Shown here piece after piece: positions 7,748-49,823 of a stretch of 64,000 bases of DNA. How positions within the stretch are numbered: position 1 is the first letter of the stretch; each line of letters starts with the position of its first letter. This DNA comes from Dolomitihabitans soli. Lineage in GTDB: Bacteria; Actinomycetota; Actinomycetes; Streptosporangiales; Streptosporangiaceae. Made by a program: the position numbers and the translations under genes. The stretch spans positions 1 to 64,000 of the forward strand of contig NZ_JAKNTW010000028.1 of the NCBI RefSeq assembly GCF_022213955.1. Reading direction: 5' to 3'. Below the pieces are notes generated by a model. The model was not told where the DNA came from. It worked only from the letters and a program-made list of their open reading frames with translations, and did not search any database.

Positions 7748-8926
7748 TCACCTGCGATCGGTGGTTCTGAACGCCGTCCAGGTGTAGGCCAGCGCGATGA
7801 ACGCGGTGACGGCGAGCAGCAGGTAGCCGATCGTGTAGGTGCCGGTGAGGGCGAGCACCGCGCCCATGACCAGCGGCGGGAAGTAGCCGCCCAGCCCGCC
7901 CGAGGCGCCGACGAGGCCGGTGACGGTGCCCACCCGGGTGGGTTCGACCAGTTGGGCGACCAGGGCGAAGACGCCGCCGGTGCCGAGGCCGAGGAAGACG
8001 GCCATGAGCACGTACTCGGCTCCGGCCGGCAGTTCGGCGGGTGGGTTCAGCGACAGGAGCAGGGCCATCACCACGACGCCGGCGAATGAGACGGTCAGCA
8101 CCCGCACCGGGCCGACCCGGTCGGACAGCACCCCGCCGAGCGGCCTGGCGAGCACGGCGGCGATGGAGAATCCCGCTGTGCGCAGGCCCGCGCCGGTCTG
8201 GGTGAAGTGGTAGGTGGTCTCCAGCAGGGTGGGCAGGTAGGTGGAGAACGCCACGAAGCCGCCGAACGCCACCGCGTACAGGAAGGCGCACTGCCAGGTC
8301 GCCTTGATCTTCGTCGCGGCGCGCATCCGGGGCAGCGCGGGCTCGGTCATCGGCTGCCAGCCGGGCGCGTTCCGGCTGAACAGCAGCATGATCACCCCCA
8401 TCGCGGCGAGCGTGACCGCCATCGCCACGTGGGTGGCGCCGCGGCCGAGCCACTCGACCAGGCGGGGCGTGAGGAAGGCGGACAGGGCGGTGCCGCCCAT
8501 CCCGGCGCCGAACACGCCGGTGGCCATGCCGCGTCGGGCCGGTTCGTACCAGGCGCTGACGAAGGGGATGCCGACGGCGAAGGAGGTGCCGGCGACGCCG
8601 AGCACGAAGCCCCACAGCAGCAGGGCGCCGAAGGAGCCGGCCCAGCCGACGAGCAGCACGGGCACGATCGACACGAAGCAGATGACCGCGAACATCAGGC
8701 GGCCGCCGACCTTGTCGGTGAGCGCGCCGACGGGGATCCGGCCCAGGGAGCCGACCAGGACGGGGACGGCGACGAGCGCCGAGGTCTGCGTCGGCGACAG
8801 GCCGAGTTGTTTGCTGTAACTGCTGGACAGGGGGCCGATGAGGTTCCAGGCCCAGAAGGTGAGCGCGAAGGCCGCCGTCGCCAGCGCCAGGTTGGCCGTC
8901 TGACCGGCGGGCCGTTCCTCGCTCAT
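7748..8926 (-). CDS. narK: NarK-type nitrate/nitrite MFS transporter
   Basis: 392 aa from the ATG at 8926, preceded by a GAGGGCGAG ribosome site. It is a 12-segment major facilitator. Nitrate-nitrite-porter features include the WNLIGPLSS start of TM1, the glycine-rich GVFGAGMGGTALSAF stretch in TM5 and a second glycine-rich GLVGASGGLGGYFPP near the C-terminus. It faces narG across a 97-bp divergent spacer, so it most likely imports nitrate for, or exports nitrite from, the nitrate reductase encoded next to it. Confidence 0.92.
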   Translation of the reverse strand: MSEERPAGQTANLALATAAFALTFWAWNLIGPLSSSYSKQLGLSPTQTSALVAVPVLVGSLGRIPVGALTDKVGGRLMFAVICFVSIVPVLLVGWAGSFGALLLWGFVLGVAGTSFAVGIPFVSAWYEPARRGMATGVFGAGMGGTALSAFLTPRLVEWLGRGATHVAMAVTLAAMGVIMLLFSRNAPGWQPMTEPALPRMRAATKIKATWQCAFLYAVAFGGFVAFSTYLPTLLETTYHFTQTGAGLRTAGFSIAAVLARPLGGVLSDRVGPVRVLTVSFAGVVVMALLLSLNPPAELPAGAEYVLMAVFLGLGTGGVFALVAQLVEPTRVGTVTGLVGASGGLGGYFPPLVMGAVLALTGTYTIGYLLLAVTAFIALAYTWTAFRTTDRR

Positions 8927-9023
8927 GATCTCGCCCTCGACTTTCACGACATGCCGTAACCCCTCGCAGCAGATCGTAACTCTGTGTGATGAACTAGGCG
9001 CTCGCGGGGTACGTGGGGCGGAG
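8927..9023. promoter_or_regulatory. divergent narK-narG control region
   Basis: This 97-bp spacer must contain both promoters. Two CGTAAC hexamers lie exactly 20 bp apart (8955-8960 and 8975-8980). The first is inside ATGCCGTAACCCC (8951-8963), a 13-mer that recurs exactly at 26136-26148. No convincing FNR/CRP palindrome or full GlnR box was found. A GGGGCGGAG ribosome site precedes the narG ATG at 9024. Confidence 0.45.
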
Positions 9024-12568
<3,545 letters not shown>

Positions 12569-12569
<1 letters not shown>

Positions 12570-14209
12570 TGCGGATTATGGCCCAGCTCGCCATGGTGAT
12601 GAACCTGGACAAGTGCATCGGATGCCACACCTGCTCGGTGACCTGCAAACAGACCTGGACCAACCGGCCCGGGGTCGAATACGTCTGGTTCAACAACGTG
12701 GAGACCCGACCGGGCCAGGGCTACCCCCGCCGCTACGAGGACCAGCGTCGGTGGCGCGGCGGCTGGGTGCTGGACCGCAAGGGACGGCTGCGACCGAGGA
12801 CCGGCGGGCGGCTGCGCAGGATGCTGACCATCTTCGCCAACCCGGTGATGCCCTCGATCCACGACTACTACGAGCCGTGGACCTACGACTACGAGAAGCT
12901 GACGACCGCCCCGCTGTCCGACGAGCCGCCGGTGGCCACCCCCCGGTCGCTGCTCAGCGGTGAGCCGATCACCGTCGGCTGGAGTGCCAACTGGGACGAC
13001 AGCCTCGGCGGCAGCCCCGAGACGCTGGTCCGCGACCCGATCGCGGAGAAGCTGGGCGAGCAGGTCAAGCTGGACTTCGAGCGGGCGTTCATGTTCTACC
13101 TGCCGCGCATCTGCGAGCACTGCCTGAACCCCTCGTGCGTCGCCTCCTGCCCGTCCGGCGCGATGTACAAGCGATCGGAGGACGGCATCGTCCTGGTCGA
13201 CCAGGACCGCTGCCGGGGCTGGCGGATGTGCGTCACCGGCTGCCCGTACAAGAAGGTCTACTTCAACCACAAGACCGGCAAGGCCGAGAAGTGCACGTTC
13301 TGCTATCCGCGGGTCGAGGTGGGGCTGCCCACCGTGTGCTCGGAGACGTGCGTCGGGCGGCTGCGCTATCTGGGCCTCATGCTCTACGACGCCGACCGGG
13401 TCGCGGAGGCGGCGTCGGTCACCGCCGACGAGGACCTGTACGAGGCGCAGCTCTCCGTCTTCCTCGACCCCGACGACCCCGCCGTCGCCCGCGCGGCGCT
13501 GGAGGCCGGGATCCCCGAAGAGTGGCTGGCGGCGGCGCGCCGGTCGCCGGTGCGCGACCTGATCGTCCGCTACCGGCTCGCGCTGCCGCTGCATCCGGAG
13601 TTCCGCACCCTGCCGATGGTCTGGTACGTGCCGCCGCTGTCGCCCGTGGTGGACGCGCTCGCCACGACCGGGCACGACGGCGAGGACGCGGGCAACCTGT
13701 TCGGTGCGATCGACGCGCTGCGCATCCCCGTCTCCTACCTGGCCGAGCTGTTCACCGCCGGTGACCCCGGGCCGGTGACGCTGGCGCTGCGCCGCCTGGC
13801 CGCGATGCGCTCGCACATGCGCGCGGTCAACCTCGGCGACGAGCCCGACCCGTCGATCGCCGCCGAGTGCGGCCTCACCGCCGCCGACATCGACGCGATG
13901 TACCGGCTGCTCGCCCTGGCCCGCTACGACGAGCGCTACGTGATCCCCACCGCCTACGAGGGGACCACGCCCGGCCGGATCGAAGAGACGGGATGCAGCC
14001 TCGACTACGACGGCGGCCCCGGCATGAACGGCCCCTTCGGCGAGACCTCCGGCCGTCCGGTGCCCGTCTCCATCGAGAGCTTCCACGGCCTCAAACAACG
14101 CCAGACCAGCGAGGAGGTCACCCGCGACCGGGTGAACCTGCTCAACTGGGACGGCCGGGGCGCCCCCAAGGGCCTGTTCCCGCAACGCGACACCACGGAG
14201 GAGCCGTGA
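12569..14209 (+). CDS. narH: respiratory nitrate reductase beta subunit
   Basis: 546 aa. This electron-transfer subunit carries iron-sulfur clusters between NarI and NarG. The first cluster motif is Cys16, Cys19, Cys22 and Cys26 (CIGCHTCSVTCKQTW). Further groups are CEHCLNPSCVASCPSG, CRGWRMCVTGCPYKK and CTFCYPRVEVG with CSETC. The CRGWRMC group has the Trp replacing a Cys that is typical of the NarH [3Fe-4S] cluster. It starts at the ATG overlapping the narG stop and ends in a GTGA overlap with narJ. Confidence 0.97.
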
Positions 14210-14748
14210 CGACCGCCACCCTGATCCGGCAGGCGGCCTCCGAGCTGCTCTGCTACCCCGACGCCGCGCTCCGCGCCCGGTTGCCCGGCCTCGACTGCCC
14301 GGAACTGGCGCGATTCGTCGAGTACGCCAGGGGGTGCGCGCCCGGCGCGCTGGAGGCGCACTACGTGGAGACGTTCGACCTGCGCCGCCGCTGCTGCCTC
14401 TACCTGACCTACTACACCGACGGCGACACCCGGCGCCGGGGCGCGTCGCTGGCCAGGCTGAAGGTGCTCTACCGGGCCCGCGGCTGGGAGCTGACCGGCG
14501 GCGAGCTGCCCGACTTCCTGCCGGTGATACTGGAGTTCGCCGCCCTGGACGAGGCGGGCGAGCAGGTCCTGCGCAGGCACCGGGCCGGGCTGGAGCTGTT
14601 GCGCACGGCTCTGCGCGACTGCGGCTCGCCGTACGAGTGGGTGGTGGGGGCGGTGTGCGCGACGCTGCCGGAGATCACTCCGCGGGAGCTGGCGAAGGCG
14701 GCGCGTCTCGCGGAGGCCGGGCCGCCCGCCGAGGAGGTCGGGATCTGA
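14206..14748 (+). CDS. narJ: nitrate reductase molybdenum cofactor assembly chaperone
   Basis: 180 aa from a GTG whose last bases overlap the narH stop (GTGA). It is a TorD/NarJ-family cytoplasmic chaperone that holds apo-NarGH until cofactor insertion. The family pattern is visible in the helix with ETFDLRRRCCLYLTYY (about residues 55-70) and the LPDFLPVILEF stretch near residue 105. The GTG start is chosen because it gives the 4-bp overlap and the usual NarJ length. The stop overlaps the narI ATG by one base. Confidence 0.94.
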   Translation: MTTATLIRQAASELLCYPDAALRARLPGLDCPELARFVEYARGCAPGALEAHYVETFDLRRRCCLYLTYYTDGDTRRRGASLARLKVLYRARGWELTGGELPDFLPVILEFAALDEAGEQVLRRHRAGLELLRTALRDCGSPYEWVVGAVCATLPEITPRELAKAARLAEAGPPAEEVGI

Positions 14749-15431
14749 TGAGCTGGATCGAGACCGCGTTGTGGGTGGTCGCGCCTTATCTGACGCTGCT
14801 GGTGCTGGTGCTCGGGCTGGTCTGGCGGTACCGCTACGACCGGTTCGGGTGGACCACGCGTTCCTCGCAGTTGTACGAGCACCGGCTGCTGCGGATCGGC
14901 AGCCCGTTGTTCCACTTCGGGCTGCTGTTCGTGATCGCCGGCCATGTCGTGGGGCTGCTGATCCCGGAGAGCTGGACCGCCGCGGCGGGAGTCCCCGAGT
15001 GGGTCTACCGGTTCTTCTCGGTGACCGTCGGCGTGGTGGCGGGGGTGTGCACGCTGGCCGGGATCACGCTGCTGATCTACCGCCGCCGGACGACGGGCCC
15101 GGTCTTCCTCGCCACGACCAGGAACGACAAGGCCATGTACGTGGTGCTGGTCGCCGCGATCGTGGCCGGGCTGCTGGCCACGATGCTCAGCAGCGGGCTG
15201 GGACATCACGACTACCGGCTGACCGTCTCGCCGTGGTTCCGCGGCATCTGGGTGCTGCGGCCCGACGCCGAGGCGATGACCGCCGCCCCGTGGCCGTTCA
15301 AGCTGCACGCGGCGATCGGCATGCTGCTGTTCGCCGCCTTCCCCTTCACCCGGCTGGTGCACGCCTTCGCGGCCCCCATCGGCTACCCCTTCAGGCCCTA
15401 CATCGTCTACCGCTCCCGGACGCCCCGCTGA
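14748..15431 (+). CDS. narI: respiratory nitrate reductase gamma subunit, cytochrome b
   Basis: 227 aa membrane subunit that oxidises menaquinol and passes electrons to NarH through two b hemes. Five membrane segments are evident. The four axial heme histidines are likely His56 (PLFHFGLLF), His66 (AGHVVG), His187 (KLHAAIG) and His205 (LVHAF). It closes the narGHJI operon and is followed at once by a strong hairpin terminator. Confidence 0.96.
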   Translation: MSWIETALWVVAPYLTLLVLVLGLVWRYRYDRFGWTTRSSQLYEHRLLRIGSPLFHFGLLFVIAGHVVGLLIPESWTAAAGVPEWVYRFFSVTVGVVAGVCTLAGITLLIYRRRTTGPVFLATTRNDKAMYVVLVAAIVAGLLATMLSSGLGHHDYRLTVSPWFRGIWVLRPDAEAMTAAPWPFKLHAAIGMLLFAAFPFTRLVHAFAAPIGYPFRPYIVYRSRTPR

Positions 15432-37742: not shown

Positions 37743-38168
37743 ATGAGACTGGACTTTGTGGGCGTTGATCCGGCCAATCCGAATGACGACTGTCCCGCGG
37801 TGTTCGTGGACCCTGAGACGGGAGATTTCTTCTTCCAGGGCGACACGGTTACCGATCCGGACGTATTAGCGTGGATCAACTCCGACAGCCGAATCAAGGA
37901 CACAGAGTCAGTTGTGCGACTCCCGGTCCACATGGCGGAGATCATCATGGAGGCGGCCAGTGGTGGTTACGAGCGCGGTCGGCGGCGTTTCTCGCGTGAG
38001 ACGCATCCCCGGCCCACTGAAGACCTACGGTCCAGGCGAGAGCAAGCCGTCGTTCGCTGCGCTGCTGGCCGGGTGCACCACATCGGCGGTGCACCTGGAG
38101 ATGCACGACCAGCACATGACCACGGATCAGGGCTACCTGGCGTGGAAGGCGGGCCTCCCCCAGCCTGA
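37743..38168 (+). CDS. small conserved hypothetical protein of a DUF6879 locus
   Basis: 141 aa as an open frame, ATG at 37743 after GGGGAGAAG. The N-terminal 75 residues (MRLDFVGVDPANPNDDCPAV, later VVRLPVHMAEIIMEAA) resemble small proteins commonly encoded just before DUF6879 genes in Streptosporangiales. The last 65 residues are Arg/Gly/Ala-rich and overlap the DUF6879 frame by about 200 bp, which is unusual. Homologues would be expected to end near 37960, so the native stop may have been lost by a small mutation. Function unknown. Confidence 0.6.
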   Translation: MRLDFVGVDPANPNDDCPAVFVDPETGDFFFQGDTVTDPDVLAWINSDSRIKDTESVVRLPVHMAEIIMEAASGGYERGRRRFSRETHPRPTEDLRSRREQAVVRCAAGRVHHIGGAPGDARPAHDHGSGLPGVEGGPPPA

Positions 38169-38553
38169 CACCGAGAGCATGAAGGCGTTCCGGGCGATGA
38201 TCAGGGGAGCGGTCATTCGCGGCGTGCGGGTGCGGCGGGCCCGGATCGTCTCCGAACCGGCGAGCGACTACGTGCGTTGGGAGCACAGCCTCACCTCCGG
38301 CCACAACATCGCCGCCGGTGAGCTCGTCCGCTGGCTGCCGCGCCCGGTCGCCTCCACCCTGGCGATTCCGGGAAACCCGTTCTGGATCTTCGATGGGCGG
38401 CTTGTGCGCTTTACCCTGTTCAGCGGCAATGGCGAGGTCACCGGACACCAGTTCACCGACGACCCCGCCGTCATCGACGGCTGCCTGACGGCTTTCGAGA
38501 CGGTGTGGGAGATCGCAATCGACCACAAGGAGTACCGTCTCCATGGCAACTGA
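37960..38553 (+). CDS. DUF6879 family protein
   Basis: 197 aa from GTG 37960, chosen because a GGAGG (37949-37953) precedes it at the right distance; GTG 37963 is equally possible. The family core runs from KPSFAALLAGCTTSAVHLEMHD (about residue 30) through MIRGAVIRGVRVRRARIVSEPASDYVRWE to FWIFDGRLVRFTLFSGNGEV and a C-terminal helix. DUF6879 proteins are small soluble partners found next to XRE/DUF5753 regulators of the WhiJ/BldB-like networks in actinomycetes. The XRE regulator follows 8 bp later. Biochemical role unknown. Confidence 0.78.
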   Translation: MVVTSAVGGVSRVRRIPGPLKTYGPGESKPSFAALLAGCTTSAVHLEMHDQHMTTDQGYLAWKAGLPQPDTESMKAFRAMIRGAVIRGVRVRRARIVSEPASDYVRWEHSLTSGHNIAAGELVRWLPRPVASTLAIPGNPFWIFDGRLVRFTLFSGNGEVTGHQFTDDPAVIDGCLTAFETVWEIAIDHKEYRLHGN

Positions 38554-38561
38554 CCATCAAC

Positions 38562-39422
38562 GTGCCTTCCTCATCCTCCTCCAGCGTCCAGCAGGCTAGG
38601 CAGGCCCTTGCCGACCAGCTTCGAGAGATCCGCCTCAGCGCCGGGCTCTCCGCGAAGGAGCTGGCGGCGCGGGCCGGCTGGCACGGCAACTCGAAGGTGA
38701 GCAAGATCGAACACGCCATCCGGCCGGCATCGGCCGAAGACGTCCGCGACTGGTGCCGCGCGTGTGGCGTCTCCCCGCAACGGACCGTCGAACTGCTCGC
38801 CGAGCAACGGGCGATGGCCGGCATGTGGGTCTCCTACCAGCGGCTGAACCGGGCCGGCCTGCGCCAGGCGCAACTGTCGGTGCGCCCGGTCTACGAACGC
38901 GCCCGCCTGATTCGCGCCTATCAGTCGCGAACCTTTCCCGGGCTGATTCAGACCGCCGCGTTCACCACGACGACCCTGGAGCAGGTCCGCATTCGCCAGG
39001 GCGTGCAGATGGACGATGTCGCCGCCGCCGTCGCGGAGCGGATGGATCGCCAGCGGGTGCTCCGGGAGGGCCGGCGCAAGTTCGTGTTCGTCCTGGAGGA
39101 GGCCGTTCTCCGGTATCGGCTCACCGAGCCCGCCGCGCACGCCGAGCAACTCGCGCACCTGCTCGAGGTGATGAAGCTCCCCTCCGTTTCGCTGGGCCTG
39201 ATTCCGCTGGCCGCCGACCGGGTGTGCAATCGCCCCGTCGAGGGGTTCGTCCTCTTCGGCGATGAACAGGTGTCGGTCGAGTTGGTGTCCGGCTACTTGA
39301 CGATCACCCAGCCGGGTGAGATCGAAATGTACGCCAGAGAATTCAACGCGCTTTCGTCCATCGCGGTGTACGGCAATGCCGCCCGGGAGTTGATCGCCGC
39401 TGCGCAGGAGGCGCTTAACTGA
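38562..39422 (+). CDS. XRE-family regulator with DUF5753 domain
   Basis: 286 aa from GTG 38562 (no strong ribosome site, so coupling to the DUF6879 gene is likely). The helix-turn-helix is at about residues 12-70 (LREIRLSAGLSAKELAARAG, then SKVSKIE). The DUF5753 domain occupies about 95-280 with its typical SRTFPGLIQTAAF, VAERMDRQRVL and SVSLGLIPLAAD segments. This is the architecture of WhiJ-like developmental and secondary-metabolism regulators. It probably works with the DUF6879 protein and the small upstream protein. Confidence 0.88.
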   Translation: MPSSSSSSVQQARQALADQLREIRLSAGLSAKELAARAGWHGNSKVSKIEHAIRPASAEDVRDWCRACGVSPQRTVELLAEQRAMAGMWVSYQRLNRAGLRQAQLSVRPVYERARLIRAYQSRTFPGLIQTAAFTTTTLEQVRIRQGVQMDDVAAAVAERMDRQRVLREGRRKFVFVLEEAVLRYRLTEPAAHAEQLAHLLEVMKLPSVSLGLIPLAADRVCNRPVEGFVLFGDEQVSVELVSGYLTITQPGEIEMYAREFNALSSIAVYGNAARELIAAAQEALN

Positions 39423-40077: not shown

Positions 40078-40794
40078 ATGCGGATCAGATGGATTGTCTC
40101 GGGGGTGCTGGCGCTGATGACGGCCGGCGGCGGTGCCATGGCGTGGGCGATCATGCAGGGCGGGCCCTCGGCTCCGCCGGACGGACCGTGGCCGACCGAC
40201 GGCTGGGTGTGGGTCGCGATGTGCGGCGAGGACGACCCGCAACCGCGCTGCTCCGGCCGGGGCCCGGCGACCGGCCCGGAGGAGAGGTCGGTCATCGCGA
40301 CCCTGAGCGGGCTCCCCGGCATCTCCGGGGTGGAACCCTCGGGTGCGAGCGCGATCGTCAAGGCCGCCATGCGTGACCGGGAGCGCTTCCCGCAGGTGAA
40401 GGCCGCGCTGGAGGGGAAACCAGGCGTGGCCGGCGTGACGGGCGTCCCGAAGGGTTTCTGGCAGGGGAAGTCCGACGTCGGCGTACTGCTCTGCACGGCG
40501 CACGGGTGTGACGGCCGGGGCGCCGCGACGGAGCCCGAGAAGGACGCGATCTACGAGTGGCTGCGGGCCCAGCCCGAGGTGGCGGAGGTCTACTTCGCCG
40601 ACCGTGCGCACGCGGTGCGGACGGCCGAACACGACGTCCGGGGCGGACTGCTGAACGGGAAGCCGGACCCGGACCCGGCCGAGTCCTTCCACGTCAAACT
40701 TCTCCGGCCCGACCGGTCCGCAGCCATCGAGCGAATCCGCCTGGCGGTCAAGAACCTGCCGGGGGTGCATTGGGCGGGCTACGGCCAGCCTTGA
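40078..40794 (+). CDS. membrane-anchored protein with two FtsX extracellular-type domains
   Basis: 238 aa, ATG at 40078. One N-terminal membrane segment (about 5-26), then an extracytoplasmic part with two related modules: about 40-128 (VWVAMCGEDDPQPRCSGRG, TGPEERSVIATLSGLPGISGV) and about 135-236 (VGVLLCTAHGCDGRGA, TEPEKDAIYEWLRAQPEVAEV, ESFHVKLLRPDRS). The pattern of a cysteine strand, a [T]-x-x-E helix and then PEVAxV matches FtsX extracellular domains, which activate peptidoglycan hydrolases. The four-helix FtsX permease is absent, so this is an orphan. A cell-wall sensing or hydrolase-tethering role is inferred. Its 3' end seeds the repeats that follow. Confidence 0.65.
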   Translation: MRIRWIVSGVLALMTAGGGAMAWAIMQGGPSAPPDGPWPTDGWVWVAMCGEDDPQPRCSGRGPATGPEERSVIATLSGLPGISGVEPSGASAIVKAAMRDRERFPQVKAALEGKPGVAGVTGVPKGFWQGKSDVGVLLCTAHGCDGRGAATEPEKDAIYEWLRAQPEVAEVYFADRAHAVRTAEHDVRGGLLNGKPDPDPAESFHVKLLRPDRSAAIERIRLAVKNLPGVHWAGYGQP

Positions 40795-40979
40795 TCCAGA
40801 TGAATCCGGCCTACGGACGGCAGGGTGCAGTGGGTGAGCTTCGGCCAACCTTGATCCGAATGAATCCGGCCAGCGCGCGCGGCAGGTGCAGTGGGCCGGC
40901 ATCGTCCAACCCCTGATCCGGATGAATCCGGCCGCCCCGTGGCAGAACGCAGTGGGCCCGCTTCGGCCGGCCCTGATCC
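40735..40979 (+). repeat. three degenerate ~60-bp copies of the preceding gene's 3' end
   Basis: Units end at 40797, 40857, 40919 and 40979, each with TGATCC; the first is the true gene end (40735-40797). Shared blocks are GAATCCG near the unit start, GGTGCA(T/G)TGGG in the middle and CGGCCA.CCTTGATCC at the end. Divergence between copies is considerable, so the expansion is old. Confidence 0.7.
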
Positions 40980-41126
40980 GGTGCTCACGGATCACCGCCG
41001 AACCATCCGGACGGGTGCGGACGAGACGCGTTTCGTCGTCTTCCATTGACACGCGAGCGATCGTGGGATCTGCTCCGGATCATCACGTGCACACCGATGC
41101 CGGTGTGCGGTCCGAGGAGGAGACCT
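40980..41126 (+). other. upstream region of the secreted esterase gene
   Basis: No gene was found in this stretch. A TTGACA (about 41046-41051) lies 17 bp before the weak -10 TCTGCT. A small hairpin GCACACC/GGTGTGC (41089-41108) and a strong GAGGAGGAG ribosome site (41114-41122) precede the GTG at 41127. Confidence 0.4.
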
Positions 41127-45805: not shown

Positions 45806-46582
45806 TCAGGTACGGCGGCGCGCGTTGATCGAGTTCACCACGGCGATGGCCGCCCCGGCCGCGAAGATGAGCGTGCCCAGAATGTTGACCTGCGGCGGCA
45901 CCCCGATCCGCACCGCGCCGTAGATCCACAGTGGGAAGGTCGTGGTGGACCCGCTGGTGAACTGGGTGATCACGAAGTCGTCGATGGACAGCGCGAAGGC
46001 CAGCAACGCCCCCGCGACCACGCCGGGCAGGATCATCGGCAGTGTCACCCGCCAGAACGTGACCCACGGCGTGGCCCCGAGATCGCGAGCCGCCTCCTCC
46101 ACCGACCGGTCGAGCCCGACGACCCTGGCCCGCACGGTCACCGCCACGAACGACACCGCGAACAGCACGTGCGCCACCACGATGGTCCAGTACCCGGTCT
46201 CGACGCCCATGCTGACGAACAGCGAGAGCAGCGAGGCGCCCATGACCAGCTCCGGCGAGGAGATCGCCGCGAACATCACCAGGTTGGTCGCCGCCTGTCC
46301 CCGGAAGCGGTGGCGGCCGAGGGCGATCCCCATCAGGGTGCCGAGGACCGTGGCGATCACCGTGACGAGCAGCGCGATCGTGATCGAGTCGAGCACGGCG
46401 GCGGTCAGCAGGGGGAACTCGTCGAGCCGTCCCCACCAGGCGAGCGTGAAGCCCTGCCAGGAGACGTTCGACTTGCTCCGCGTGTCGTTGAAGCCGAACA
46501 CGATCATCACGATGATCGGCGCGAACAGCCAGGCGAGGACGAGCCAGACGTAGATCCGCAGCAGCCGGTCGCCGGTTCTCAT
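45806..46582 (-). CDS. potC: polyamine ABC transporter permease PotC
   Basis: 258 aa. Six membrane segments; the EAA-loop motif of binding-protein-dependent permeases is EEAARDLGATPWVTFWRVTLP at about residues 160-180. The start RLLRIYVWLVLAWLFAPIIVMIVFGFN resembles PotC of spermidine/putrescine importers. The ATG overlaps the potB stop by 4 bp. Confidence 0.9.
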   Translation of the reverse strand: MRTGDRLLRIYVWLVLAWLFAPIIVMIVFGFNDTRSKSNVSWQGFTLAWWGRLDEFPLLTAAVLDSITIALLVTVIATVLGTLMGIALGRHRFRGQAATNLVMFAAISSPELVMGASLLSLFVSMGVETGYWTIVVAHVLFAVSFVAVTVRARVVGLDRSVEEAARDLGATPWVTFWRVTLPMILPGVVAGALLAFALSIDDFVITQFTSGSTTTFPLWIYGAVRIGVPPQVNILGTLIFAAGAAIAVVNSINARRRT

Positions 46583-47430
46583 CGGGCAGCCGCCTCCAGC
46601 ACGTTCTCGGTGCCGAGCACCCGCGCGTAGGCGAAGATGCCGGCCAGCATCACCGCCATCAGCGTGAACGACAGCGCCGCCCCCACCGGATAGTCGTTGT
46701 TGACCAGATACTCCGTCTGGATGATGTTTCCGATCATGGTGTTCGCCGGCCCGCCGAGGATCGCCGCGTTGACGTAGTCGGAGGTCATCGGCACGAAGGT
46801 CATCAGCACCCCGGCGAAGATCCCGGGCAGCGAGAGCGGCAGCACCACCCGGGTGAACGCCCCGGCGCGCGAGGCGTACAGGTCCCTGGCCGCCTCCACC
46901 ACCGAGGGATCGACCCGTTCCAGCGACACGTAGATCGGCAGGATCATGAACGGCAGGTAGTTGTAGACCAGCCCGCCGATCACCGCCGTCGTCGTCTGCA
47001 GCACGTGGAAGTCCGCCGCCAGCAGGCCCGCCGACTTCAGCGGGCCGAGCAGCATCCCGTCGTCGGCCAGCAGGAACTTCCACGAGACGGTGCGCAGCAC
47101 GAAGGAGACGAAGAACGGCAGCAGCACCAGCAGCAGGTACGTCGACTTGCGCGCGCCGCCCCGGAACGCGATCCAGTACGCCACGGGGTAGGCGAGCAGC
47201 ACGGCCAGAACCGTGCCGGCCAGGCCGTACCCGGCGGAGCGCAGGAACTGGGTCTGGTATCTGGCCAGCGCGTCGGTGTAGTTGGAGAAGGCGAACGTCT
47301 GGGCGAAGCCGTTCACCACGTCGCCCTCCTGGGTCGAGACCGAGGCCATGAAGACCATCGGCACCACCAGGAACACCGCCAGCCAGAGCCCGCCCGGCAG
47401 GATCAGGAGGTAGGGGGTGAGCCGCCGCAC
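46579..47430 (-). CDS. potB: polyamine ABC transporter permease PotB
   Basis: 283 aa with six membrane segments, the partner of PotC in the channel. EAA loop: VEAARDLYASRAGAFTRVVLP near residue 188. The FFVSFVLRTVSWKFLL region and the late NTMIGNIIQTEYL segment are typical of PotB. It begins 3 bp after the potD stop and ends in an ATGA overlap with potC. Confidence 0.9.
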   Translation of the reverse strand: MRRLTPYLLILPGGLWLAVFLVVPMVFMASVSTQEGDVVNGFAQTFAFSNYTDALARYQTQFLRSAGYGLAGTVLAVLLAYPVAYWIAFRGGARKSTYLLLVLLPFFVSFVLRTVSWKFLLADDGMLLGPLKSAGLLAADFHVLQTTTAVIGGLVYNYLPFMILPIYVSLERVDPSVVEAARDLYASRAGAFTRVVLPLSLPGIFAGVLMTFVPMTSDYVNAAILGGPANTMIGNIIQTEYLVNNDYPVGAALSFTLMAVMLAGIFAYARVLGTENVLEAAAR

Positions 47431-47433
47431 GGC

Positions 47434-48669
47434 TCAGCCCTGGGTGATCGGCTGGAAGAGGTCCTCGAAGAACTTCTCCTCCGCGCTCGACAACGTCTTG
47501 TAGGACCGGAGCCTGGCCTGGTCGGCCTCCGACGGGTAGATCAGGGGGCTCTCGGCGACGCCTTCGAGGAACTTCCGGTCCTCGGCCTTCTTCGCCTTCG
47601 CGGCGTGGGCCACGACCAGGTCCCTGGTGGCGGGCACCGGGGTGATGTAGTTGATGTACTCCACCAGCATGCTGGCGATCTCCGGCCGGTAGACGTAGTC
47701 CATCAGGGTGAGCGCGTCGACCGGGTTCCGCGCGCCCTTGGGGATGCACATGTTGTCGGTCCAGATCGTGCCGCCCTCGTCGGGCACCACGAACTTCAGG
47801 TTCTTGCCCTCCGCGACCTGCTGGAAGATGTCGCCCGACCAGGCCATGGTGATCCACACGTCGCCGCGGACCAGCGCGTCCACGTAGTCGTTCTCGTAGT
47901 ACTTGCGCACCAGGCCCGCGTCGCGCTGCTCCCTGAGCTTCGCCGCCGCCTTCTCCCAGTCGGATCTGCCCGACCTGTCGGGGTCGATGCCCAGCAGGAA
48001 CATCGCGAAGTTGGCGACCTCCTGGGTGTCGAGCATCATGCCGATCTTGCCCTTGTACTTCGGGTTCCACAGCTCCTGGAGGCTGGTGATGTCGCCGTCG
48101 ACGTACTCGGGGTTGTAGGCGACGCCGGTGACGCCGACCGTCCACGGGATCGTGTGGGCGTTGTTCGCGTCCCACACCGGGTTCTTCACCTTCTCGGCGG
48201 CGTTGGCGGCGAAGTTCGGCAGTTTGGCGTGGTCGAGCGGCACCAGGTAGCCCAGCGCCAGCGCCCGGCTGAGCTGGATGCCGTTGGTCATGACCATGAG
48301 GTCGTGGCCGATGTCCTGGTTCGCGGCGAGCAACGGCTGGATCTTGCCGAACCAGGTGGAGTTGTCCTGGATCGGCTCCTGGTAGGTCACCGCGATCCCG
48401 GTGTCCTTGGTGAACCGCTCCAGCGAGGGGTAGTCCTTGCCGTCCTTGTCGATGTAGAGGGGCCAGTTGGCGAACCGGAGCGCGCCGTTCTGCTTCTTGC
48501 TCGCCCAGTAATCGGCCACGGCGTCCTTCTCGGGCGGCGCGGCCTTCTTGCCCTGCACGCCGCACGCGCCGAGGGTGAGACCGGCGGCGGCCAGACCGGC
48601 GAGCCGGAGGGCGTCACGGCGGCTGTGCGTCATGCCACGGAGGAAGGCGGGGTCGTTACGAAGATCCAT
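47434..48669 (-). CDS. potD: polyamine-binding lipoprotein PotD
   Basis: About 411 aa from ATG 48669. The N-terminus has a twin-arginine-like SRRDALRLAG followed by the lipobox LGACG, so it is probably a Tat-exported lipoprotein anchored outside. The mature part is a PotD/PotF-type periplasmic-binding fold: LRFANWPLYIDKDG, TWFGKIQPLLAANQDIGHD and WSGDIFQQV line the binding cleft, with aromatic and acidic residues suited to a cationic polyamine. It delivers substrate to PotBC. It starts 8 bp after potA ends. Confidence 0.9.
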   Translation of the reverse strand: MDLRNDPAFLRGMTHSRRDALRLAGLAAAGLTLGACGVQGKKAAPPEKDAVADYWASKKQNGALRFANWPLYIDKDGKDYPSLERFTKDTGIAVTYQEPIQDNSTWFGKIQPLLAANQDIGHDLMVMTNGIQLSRALALGYLVPLDHAKLPNFAANAAEKVKNPVWDANNAHTIPWTVGVTGVAYNPEYVDGDITSLQELWNPKYKGKIGMMLDTQEVANFAMFLLGIDPDRSGRSDWEKAAAKLREQRDAGLVRKYYENDYVDALVRGDVWITMAWSGDIFQQVAEGKNLKFVVPDEGGTIWTDNMCIPKGARNPVDALTLMDYVYRPEIASMLVEYINYITPVPATRDLVVAHAAKAKKAEDRKFLEGVAESPLIYPSEADQARLRSYKTLSSAEEKFFEDLFQPITQG

Positions 48670-48677
48670 TGGGGGGT

Positions 48678-49823
48678 TCAACTTCCTATCGCGTACGAGT
48701 ACTGCTGCTGCCACGACAGCCAGACCGAGTCCCCCCTTTCCGCGGTGGTGATGCCGTCGTGCGCGTTCTGCTGGAAGACCGTGACCTCCTCGCCCCCTGC
48801 GAGGCCCACGGCATAGCTGGTGGAGGTGCCCAGGTAGACCACCTCGGACACGGTGCCCCGCACCGCGCTGAGATTCCCCTCCGGCTCGCCCGCGGAAATC
48901 GTGATCTTCTCCGGCCGTACGGTCACCACGACCGCGTCACCCGCCTGGCGGCCGCCCCGCTCGACGAGCACCCGGCCGCCGGCCCCGAGCGGCAGTACGG
49001 CGGTGCTCCCGTCGATCCGCTCGACCGTGCCCGTCAGCAGGTTGGAGGTGCCGATGAAACCGGCCACGAACGGCGTCGCCGGACGTTCGTAGACCTCGCG
49101 CGGCGTGGCGAGCTGCTCGACCAGACCGTCGTTCATGACGGCGATCCGCTCGCTCATGGTGAGCGCCTCGTTCTGGTCGTGCGTCACGTAGACGAAGGTG
49201 ACGCCGACCTCGCGCTGGATCCGCTTGAGCTCGACCTGCATGGCCTGGCGCAGCTTGAGGTCCAGCGCGCCGAGCGGCTCGTCGAGCAGCAGCGCACGCG
49301 GCTTGTTGACCAGGGCCCTGGCCAGCGCGACCCGCTGCTGCTGCCCGCCCGACAGCTCCCTGGGGCGGCGCTTCTCCCGCCCCGTCAGATCGACGATCTC
49401 CAGCATCTCGCCGACCCGGCGCCGGATCTCCGCCTCCGCCACCTTCCTGCGGCGCAGGCCGAAGGCGACGTTCTCCCGCACGTCCATGTGCGGGAACAGC
49501 GCGTAGGACTGGAACACCATGTTGACGTCGCGTTTGTCGGGCGGCACGTCGGTGACGTCGTGCCCGTGCAGGCGGACCGCGCCGCGCGAGGGCTCCTCGA
49601 ACCCGGCGATCATCCGCATCGTGGTGGTCTTGCCGCACCCGGAAGGCCCCAGCAGGGAGAAGAACTCCCCCGCCGCGATGCCGAGCGTGACGCCCCGCAC
49701 CGCCTGGACGACCTCACCGCGCGCGACGTACTCCTTGACGACCCCGTCGAGCTCGATGGCGGGGACCGGGGAGAGTCCGGGGGCGGCGGCCGCCGCCCCC
49801 GTGCCCGCCTGGGTATCGCTCAT
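48678..49823 (-). CDS. potA: polyamine ABC transporter ATPase PotA
   Basis: 381 aa from ATG 49823. Walker A GPSGCGKTTT (about residue 60), Q-loop VFQSYALFPHM, signature LSGGQQQRVALARAL (about 155), Walker B ALLLDEPLGALD and the H-loop THDQ. A C-terminal TOBE domain (about 275-381) is typical of PotA/CUT1 ATPases. It energises PotBC and sits 29 bp downstream of the aldehyde dehydrogenase. Confidence 0.93.
   Translation of the reverse strand: MSDTQAGTGAAAAAPGLSPVPAIELDGVVKEYVARGEVVQAVRGVTLGIAAGEFFSLLGPSGCGKTTTMRMIAGFEEPSRGAVRLHGHDVTDVPPDKRDVNMVFQSYALFPHMDVRENVAFGLRRRKVAEAEIRRRVGEMLEIVDLTGREKRRPRELSGGQQQRVALARALVNKPRALLLDEPLGALDLKLRQAMQVELKRIQREVGVTFVYVTHDQNEALTMSERIAVMNDGLVEQLATPREVYERPATPFVAGFIGTSNLLTGTVERIDGSTAVLPLGAGGRVLVERGGRQAGDAVVVTVRPEKITISAGEPEGNLSAVRGTVSEVVYLGTSTSYAVGLAGGEEVTVFQQNAHDGITTAERGDSVWLSWQQQYSYAIGS

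Follow-up and report, generated by a model that had tools for sequence, protein, structure and literature searches.

A permease-less protein with two FtsX extracellular-type domains in Dolomitihabitans soli and its relatives in the Streptosporangiaceae

The locus and its product

The window, by which we mean the whole stretch of 64,000 nucleotides of Dolomitihabitans soli DNA that was analysed, carries the open reading frame (ORF) under study together with the features collected in Table 1. The frame of the ORF is open for just 12 codons before its first start codon, at which the ORF begins, and the GC fractions of the ORF at the three codon positions (0.72/0.56/0.90) are typical of the coding frames of the genome. 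No Shine-Dalgarno sequence was seen by eye at the ORF, and a search there for a sigma-70-like promoter found none, a result of little weight in actinomycetes. The plus strand past the ORF showed no terminator-like site. No second copy of the tandem repeat of comparable length was found in the genome, and the RNA structure of the repeat is not unusual (z 0.86).

Table 1. Features of the ORF and its 3′ end, in window positions
Feature	Position	Strand	Description	Basis
ORF	40078..40794	+	238 aa; hydrophobic segment and two domains of FtsX extracellular domain (ECD) descent; no permease helices	
Hydrophobic segment	40093..40149	+	single segment, residues 6-24; signal anchor or signal peptide	hydropathy scan; model helix 13-26
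Domain 1 (D1)	40195..40449	+	residues 40-124; upper lobe of the FtsX ECD, beta-alpha-beta-beta-alpha-beta, without the lower lobe	
Domain 2 (D2)	40456..40782	+	residues 127-235; FtsX ECD that carries the canonical FW..K junction motif	
Tandem repeat	40764..40981	+	60-bp unit, 3.6 copies, from the last ORF codons past the stop	

Neither ftsE nor a gene for an FtsX-type permease adjoins the ORF. The nearest recognised ABC genes, at 45806-49823 on the minus strand, encode a binding-protein-dependent importer (two permeases, a binding protein and an ATPase) that is unrelated to FtsEX. The genuine ftsE-ftsX pair of this genome is intact elsewhere, on contig C13, where the canonical FtsX of 301 aa adjoins ftsE. 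Upstream of the ORF, at 38089-39422, a DUF6879 gene is followed by an HTH_31/DUF5753 regulator of the XRE type, and the genome holds 19 DUF5753 genes. A link of the ORF with XRE/DUF5753 and DUF6879/DUF397 genes is not supported, such genes being found within 3.5 kb at only two of 14 loci (the window and L040), several of which have shorter flanks; the record of locus L129 names an XRE regulator gene that this search missed. The gene downstream of the ORF encodes a protein without a Pfam match that looks secreted by eye. Farther off, at 9024-15431, lie a gene for a large molybdopterin oxidoreductase (Pfam) and then three genes that by eye resemble the remainder of a respiratory nitrate reductase operon.

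By hydropathy, the window protein has a single hydrophobic segment and the genome's own canonical FtsX has four; the two proteins share the ECD and the FW..K junction but not the permease. A PPDGPWP linker separates the segment from the two domains. The AlphaFold2 model, built on 24 sequences, has a mean pLDDT of 88.1 and a pTM of 0.79. In the model, D1 (residues 42-124) has the order of strands and helices given in Table 1, and D2 (134-235) reads beta-alpha-beta-alpha-beta-alpha-beta. The first 30 residues are modelled poorly, and the helix of the hydrophobic region (13-26) has a pLDDT of about 50-67. A sequence-only reading of this DNA had placed both domains on one membrane anchor; the single segment stands, whereas in the window copy it may be a cleaved signal peptide. 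An anchor is favoured by those relatives that carry a conserved tail ahead of the hydrophobic helix. This presumably cytoplasmic N-terminal tail, of the type EELSFG...RE(P/S)R, is seen in several cluster-type relatives, at loci L056, L057, L059, L061-L065 and L070, and is absent from the window copy.

The genome encodes three two-domain proteins, on contigs C19 (the window), C81 and C3, in addition to the ftsE-ftsX pair. The C81 paralog is 47% identical to the window protein over residues 5-236 of the latter, and its D1 also has no middle part of the ECD. Over 237 codons, the first, second and third positions of the two genes differ by 39, 35 and 51%, and the NG86 estimates are 0.51 for dN and 1.00 for dS, which is near saturation. 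With that limit on dS, the divergence is compatible with purifying selection at a moderately low dN/dS.

Kinship of the two domains with the FtsX ectodomain

D2 is the more readily recognised of the two domains. Residues 136-230 match Pfam FtsX_ECD (PF18075) at 33.5 bits, against a gathering score of 23.5 (E 6.6e-8); the Pfam scan up to E 10 listed nothing else, so that D1 was not detected. The NCBIfam model of actinobacterial FtsX, NF038346 (FtsX_actino), scores 29.7 bits, below its cut-off of 250, and its match is limited to the ECD part (profile positions 47-159 of 308). FtsX_ECD is also present in all 26 members of alignment A1; the weak other Pfam matches there (AsnC_trans_reg in 3/26 and four families in 1/26 each) were set aside as chance or shared fold. 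In the structure comparison (VIA-align), the top match of D2 (residues 129-235) is the ECD of Mycobacterium tuberculosis FtsX, 4n8n_A, with Z 10.3 and an rmsd of 3.6 over 95 aligned residues. The reference structures of M. tuberculosis FtsX comprise this ECD, the full FtsX 8idb and four further PDB entries. When the window protein was compared by sequence directly with the PDB, no FtsX was among the matches; these were mostly polyubiquitin over single stretches, at 1-2 bits where printed, and were rejected as chance. Full-length Foldseek rows (acetohydroxyacid synthase, AcrB-type pumps) were discarded, with an rmsd of about 16 Å or more.

The fold of D2 is thus that of the FtsX ECD, while the window D1 alone gives generic ferredoxin-like domains in the structure comparison, at Z of about 8-9. 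These ACT-, HMA- and Lrp-type rows are not read as kinship because sequence, tree and relatives all indicate FtsX; they are taken as common folds to which the predicted domain would be reduced after loss of a lobe. A profile of 18 canonical FtsX ECDs scores the window D1 at 31.1 bits, versus 2.6 for the best of 2000 shuffles, in two pieces (model positions 12-54 and 91-113) that skip positions 55-90. The genome's own FtsX, used as a single query, did not find it (i-E 0.72); the claim of kinship for D1 therefore rests on profiles and on the family. Of the two FtsX-type ECDs proposed from the sequence alone, then, D2 passes Pfam, and D1, which Pfam misses, is recognised by the 18-ECD profile.

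A D1 profile built without the window sequence matches every one of the 18 canonical ECDs (62-92 bits), and a profile-profile comparison of D1s with canonical ECDs gives 99.8%. Searched against the PDB up to E 1, the family profile A3 returns FtsX only (six sequences), its D1 part (85-176) matching 6hfx at E 7.8e-8 and its D2 part (216-292) matching 4n8n at E 1.4e-5. The model of a relative with a complete D1, from Streptosporangium subroseum (L058), has a pLDDT of 83.6; the ten best structure rows of this D1 are all FtsX ECDs, with 4n8n at Z 12.9 over residues 73-181, almost all rows of the search covering D1 and hardly sampling D2. On this evidence, the window D1 is regarded as an FtsX ECD by descent, and the kinship of the tandem-ECD protein with FtsX, taken alone, is very likely.

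A tree of 66 ECDs, in which all 66 rows were retained, places the D1s (24), the D2s (24) and the canonical ECDs (18) each on one side of a branch, with supports of 100/96, 99/95 and 97/90, respectively, from few columns. The two halves of the window protein fall into the D1 and D2 clades, D1 with a very long branch (1.83). The separate clades suggest that one old internal duplication probably gave rise to the pair. The genome's own FtsX finds 35 distinct relatives at E <= 1e-10, and in 30 of them it matches both halves at i-E <= 0.01; the window protein is among the five in which it does not. In 16 of the 35, the N-terminal half is matched by the TM1-ECD part of this canonical FtsX, with the first transmembrane segment (TM1) included. 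Most simply, the permease part was lost once and the ECD was duplicated internally once, and the result has been inherited since, an order of events that we infer. Nearly all D1s and D2s have retained a pair of cysteines (of the C49/C57 and C139/C144 type, respectively), and PMC10694151 describes a disulfide in the ECD of M. tuberculosis FtsX. In alignment A3, the D2 signature consists of the invariant Tyr172, Trp128, Gly130 and Asp133 and the nearly invariant Lys131.

Distribution of the family and its gene clusters

The two-domain model, applied at E <= 1e-29 to 250 genomes in 68 genera of the window's family, finds matches in 59 genomes and 16 genera, up to five in a single genome; the total of 110 matches includes partial or split rows (e.g. 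G565 and G132). The arrangement proposed from the sequence alone, two FtsX extracellular-type domains with neither permease nor ATPase, is hence borne out and recurs as a family, and since it does so one may reasonably think of a new type of cell-wall regulator, as had been suggested. Relatives at 17 named loci come from genera that include Streptosporangium, Microbispora, Planomonospora, Planobispora, Sphaerisporangium, Nonomuraea and Spongiactinospora, which we take to be Streptosporangiaceae. Planotetraspora and Microtetraspora are also represented, and the NCBI taxonomy assigns both to that family. The starts of the relatives were set mechanically, and the rows of the second copy of L060 and of L066, L067, L068 and L072 are incomplete. 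At L066 (Nonomuraea sp. SBT364; 1-708 and 8456-10069), the contig end truncates an ECD gene, with an apparent canonical ftsE-ftsX pair about 8 kb away.

A search of 394 genomes of the class gave no long two-domain match outside the window's family among the matches listed, from the best downwards; those listed from elsewhere cover one ECD, some with the preceding helix. In the phylum, PF18075 matched at least 364 of 396 genomes at E <= 1e-5, and at least 10 genomes, including that of the window, had two or more matches. Literature searches of partial coverage, without preprints, found nothing on permease-less tandem FtsX ECDs or on the FtsX extracellular domain in Streptosporangi-; the FtsX ECD itself is already known, and a family with the tandem permease-less architecture did not turn up in the literature searched.

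At 14 of the 17 named loci, an ECD gene or gene pair sits between a gene for a membrane protein of 646-837 aa and a GT2 glycosyltransferase gene. The GT2 gene is present in all 59 genomes with two-domain matches, and in 41 of these one or more ECD matches lie no farther than 6 kb upstream of it, on the same strand. Counted by match, 57 of the 110 lie in that position and 53 are dispersed; 18 of the 59 genomes have none in the cluster. The protein families of the cluster were scanned on the pooled proteins of three genomes (L046/L057, L048 and L050). Besides the GT2 protein, they include an LCP transferase (PF03816, E 1e-49), a mannose-1-phosphate guanylyltransferase (501 bits versus a cut-off of 440), a PMT-like protein (E 1.1e-4, just under the cut-off), a GT4 protein, two LPG_synthase_TM proteins and a methyltransferase. 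The membrane protein of L057 (Microtetraspora glauca) has no Pfam match and a weak NCBIfam match to putative glycosyltransferases (26.2 bits, cut-off 200). From these genes, the product of the cluster would be a mannose-containing envelope glycopolymer or glycan. In the gene calls of this analysis, the membrane gene is separated from the ECD gene by 7-21 bp at L057, L062 and L070, which suggests cotranscription there.

This setting raises the possibility, rather unlikely in our estimate, that the family serves as an accessory to envelope-glycan assembly, in an extracytoplasmic glycosyltransferase or LCP step, with the dispersed copies serving paralogous enzymes. The recurrent slot next to a putative glycosyltransferase and the short gaps speak for such a role, but co-location differs from function, and by eye the dispersed loci listed have no such neighbours. 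The window copy itself is dispersed and lies outside the cluster. Its genome nevertheless keeps the cluster, in which other genes fill the slot flanked by the membrane protein and GT2; no ECD gene was found in the frames of that cluster, and the link with the cluster may therefore not apply to the window copy. The slot in question (L074, 2543-9703, on contig C13) holds unrelated genes, one of them PIN-like by eye. At L070 (8905-9497) and L071 (9074-9768), small pairs that resemble toxin-antitoxin genes by eye share the slot with ECD genes. Since the slot also accepts unrelated genes, including such pairs, the co-location could partly reflect a hot spot.

Binding surfaces and proposed role

PMC10694151 names F61, F110, F113 and F122 as residues of the M. 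tuberculosis FtsX ECD, carried by its lower lobe, that bind the hydrolase, and describes RipC as gripped between two ECDs of FtsEX. For pneumococcal FtsX, PMC6355983 reports that the helical lobe of the ECD is involved in hydrolase binding and that the isolated ECD binds the coiled coil of the hydrolase. Both descriptions would suit a decoy or tether of the kind proposed from the sequence alone, in which one chain, its two ECDs mimicking the pair in the FtsX dimer, would keep a RipC-like hydrolase off FtsEX or parallel to it. For the stretch that forms the lower lobe, the 18 canonical ECDs have 26-27 residues, and the 23 other D1s of the family, which keep most of it, have 17-35; the window D1 has 5, and shows the upper lobe without a helical lower lobe. 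The window D2 retains one helix, 176-187, and a loop, with 25 residues in this stretch.

The contact residues were counted over the rows with a letter at the position concerned. An aromatic residue stands at the F61 position in 15/18 canonical ECDs versus 7/24 D1s and 1/23 D2s, and at the F110 equivalent (115 in the genome's FtsX) in 14/18 canonical ECDs, 10/17 D1s and 6/19 D2s. The F122 equivalent (130 in the genome's FtsX) is hydrophobic in all 18 canonical ECDs and all 23 D1s, which agrees with a retained grip, and in 15/24 D2s. At positions 61, 111, 115, 121 and 130 of the genome's FtsX, among which the counterpart of M. tuberculosis F113 is approximate, the window D2 reads L, A, gap, L, P; the aromatic/hydrophobic cluster that binds the hydrolase is not found in it. 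Because FtsX grips hydrolases through the lower lobe and this cluster, the competition with FtsX for RipC-type hydrolases that had been proposed for the window protein is weak, its D1 lobe being missing and the aromatic contacts of D2 lost. Such competition would fit the cluster-type relatives better, where the D1 lobe is kept. Taken over the family as a whole, we consider the decoy or tether unlikely.

That the window copy is merely a dispersed duplicate being lost is very improbable: the lost D1 lobe, the long D1 branch, the lack of a promoter-like site and the repeat across the stop codon would agree with decay, and the branch and the moderately low dN/dS leave it some room, but the frame is open and intact with codon-position GC as in other coding frames, a 47%-identical paralog has the same deletion, third codon positions vary most, the cysteine pairs and the D2 motif are preserved, and the model is confident (pLDDT 88).

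The reading that we prefer, tentatively and at a probability of roughly 0.45, is that the window protein belongs to a lineage-specific family derived from FtsX, of which it is a diverged and dispersed representative, and works as a passive extracytoplasmic binding module without ATP-driven movement. The family would have arisen from FtsX by loss of the permease after the TM1-ECD part and gain of a second ECD, presumably in that order. Its products would be held at the membrane or exported across it and would act outside the cell, as adaptors or tethers that bind protein independently of ATP. With neither ATPase nor permease, they could not pull as FtsEX does, though a partner could be held, hidden or positioned. 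For the family at large, this partner would most likely belong to the envelope glycopolymer machinery encoded by the adjoining genes, and a peptidoglycan hydrolase might be held as well, by the D1 lobe; the cluster-type relatives that keep the lobe could still grip a coiled coil. The window copy has lost it, and a different binding surface or partner is therefore more likely than a role as an FtsX-style hydrolase activator; binding would probably proceed via the upper lobe or surfaces specific to D2.

A bolder extension of the binding-module reading, which we regard as improbable, takes the tandem ECDs as covalent stand-ins for the ectodomains of the FtsX dimer and as ATP-independent adaptors between glycopolymer and peptidoglycan. 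Assembly of a mannose-type wall glycopolymer, by the extracytoplasmic glycosyltransferase and the LCP ligase, would then be tied to local opening of the peptidoglycan. Expansion in this lineage, up to five copies in one genome, would have given each copy its own partner, and lobe-less copies such as that of the window would have switched to partners other than hydrolases.

The link with the glycopolymer-type cluster points to a possible coupling of wall polymer attachment and wall remodelling in the Streptosporangiaceae. The FtsX ectodomain is usually seen as part of an ATP-driven machine, and a family of tandem ECDs would separate binding from activation in the control of hydrolases; its variants with and without the hydrolase-binding lobe offer a natural set for assigning surfaces to roles.

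Compared with M. tuberculosis FtsX, the tandem-ECD protein shares the fold of the ECD (4n8n), both in the window D2 and in the intact D1 of the relative, and the cysteine pair of its disulfide, kept in each domain. Unlike that FtsX, it comes without permease or FtsE and has two ECDs per chain, and the window copy, without the lower lobe in D1, has not kept the aromatic hydrolase contacts.

FtsX ECDs without a permease also occur in proteins encoded on Embleya plasmids (L128, 3764-4954; L129, 3782-4954; L130, 1647-2939). These differ in having one ECD, a start that resembles a lipoprotein by eye, and an unassigned C-terminal part of about 200 aa, and they show a second way in which the ECD has been detached from FtsX. 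Two of the three are recorded as ‘permease-like cell division protein FtsX’ despite a single hydrophobic segment. Similar permease-less ECD proteins may therefore be hidden under that name, and the two cases serve as a warning that the automatic name lands on proteins without a permease.
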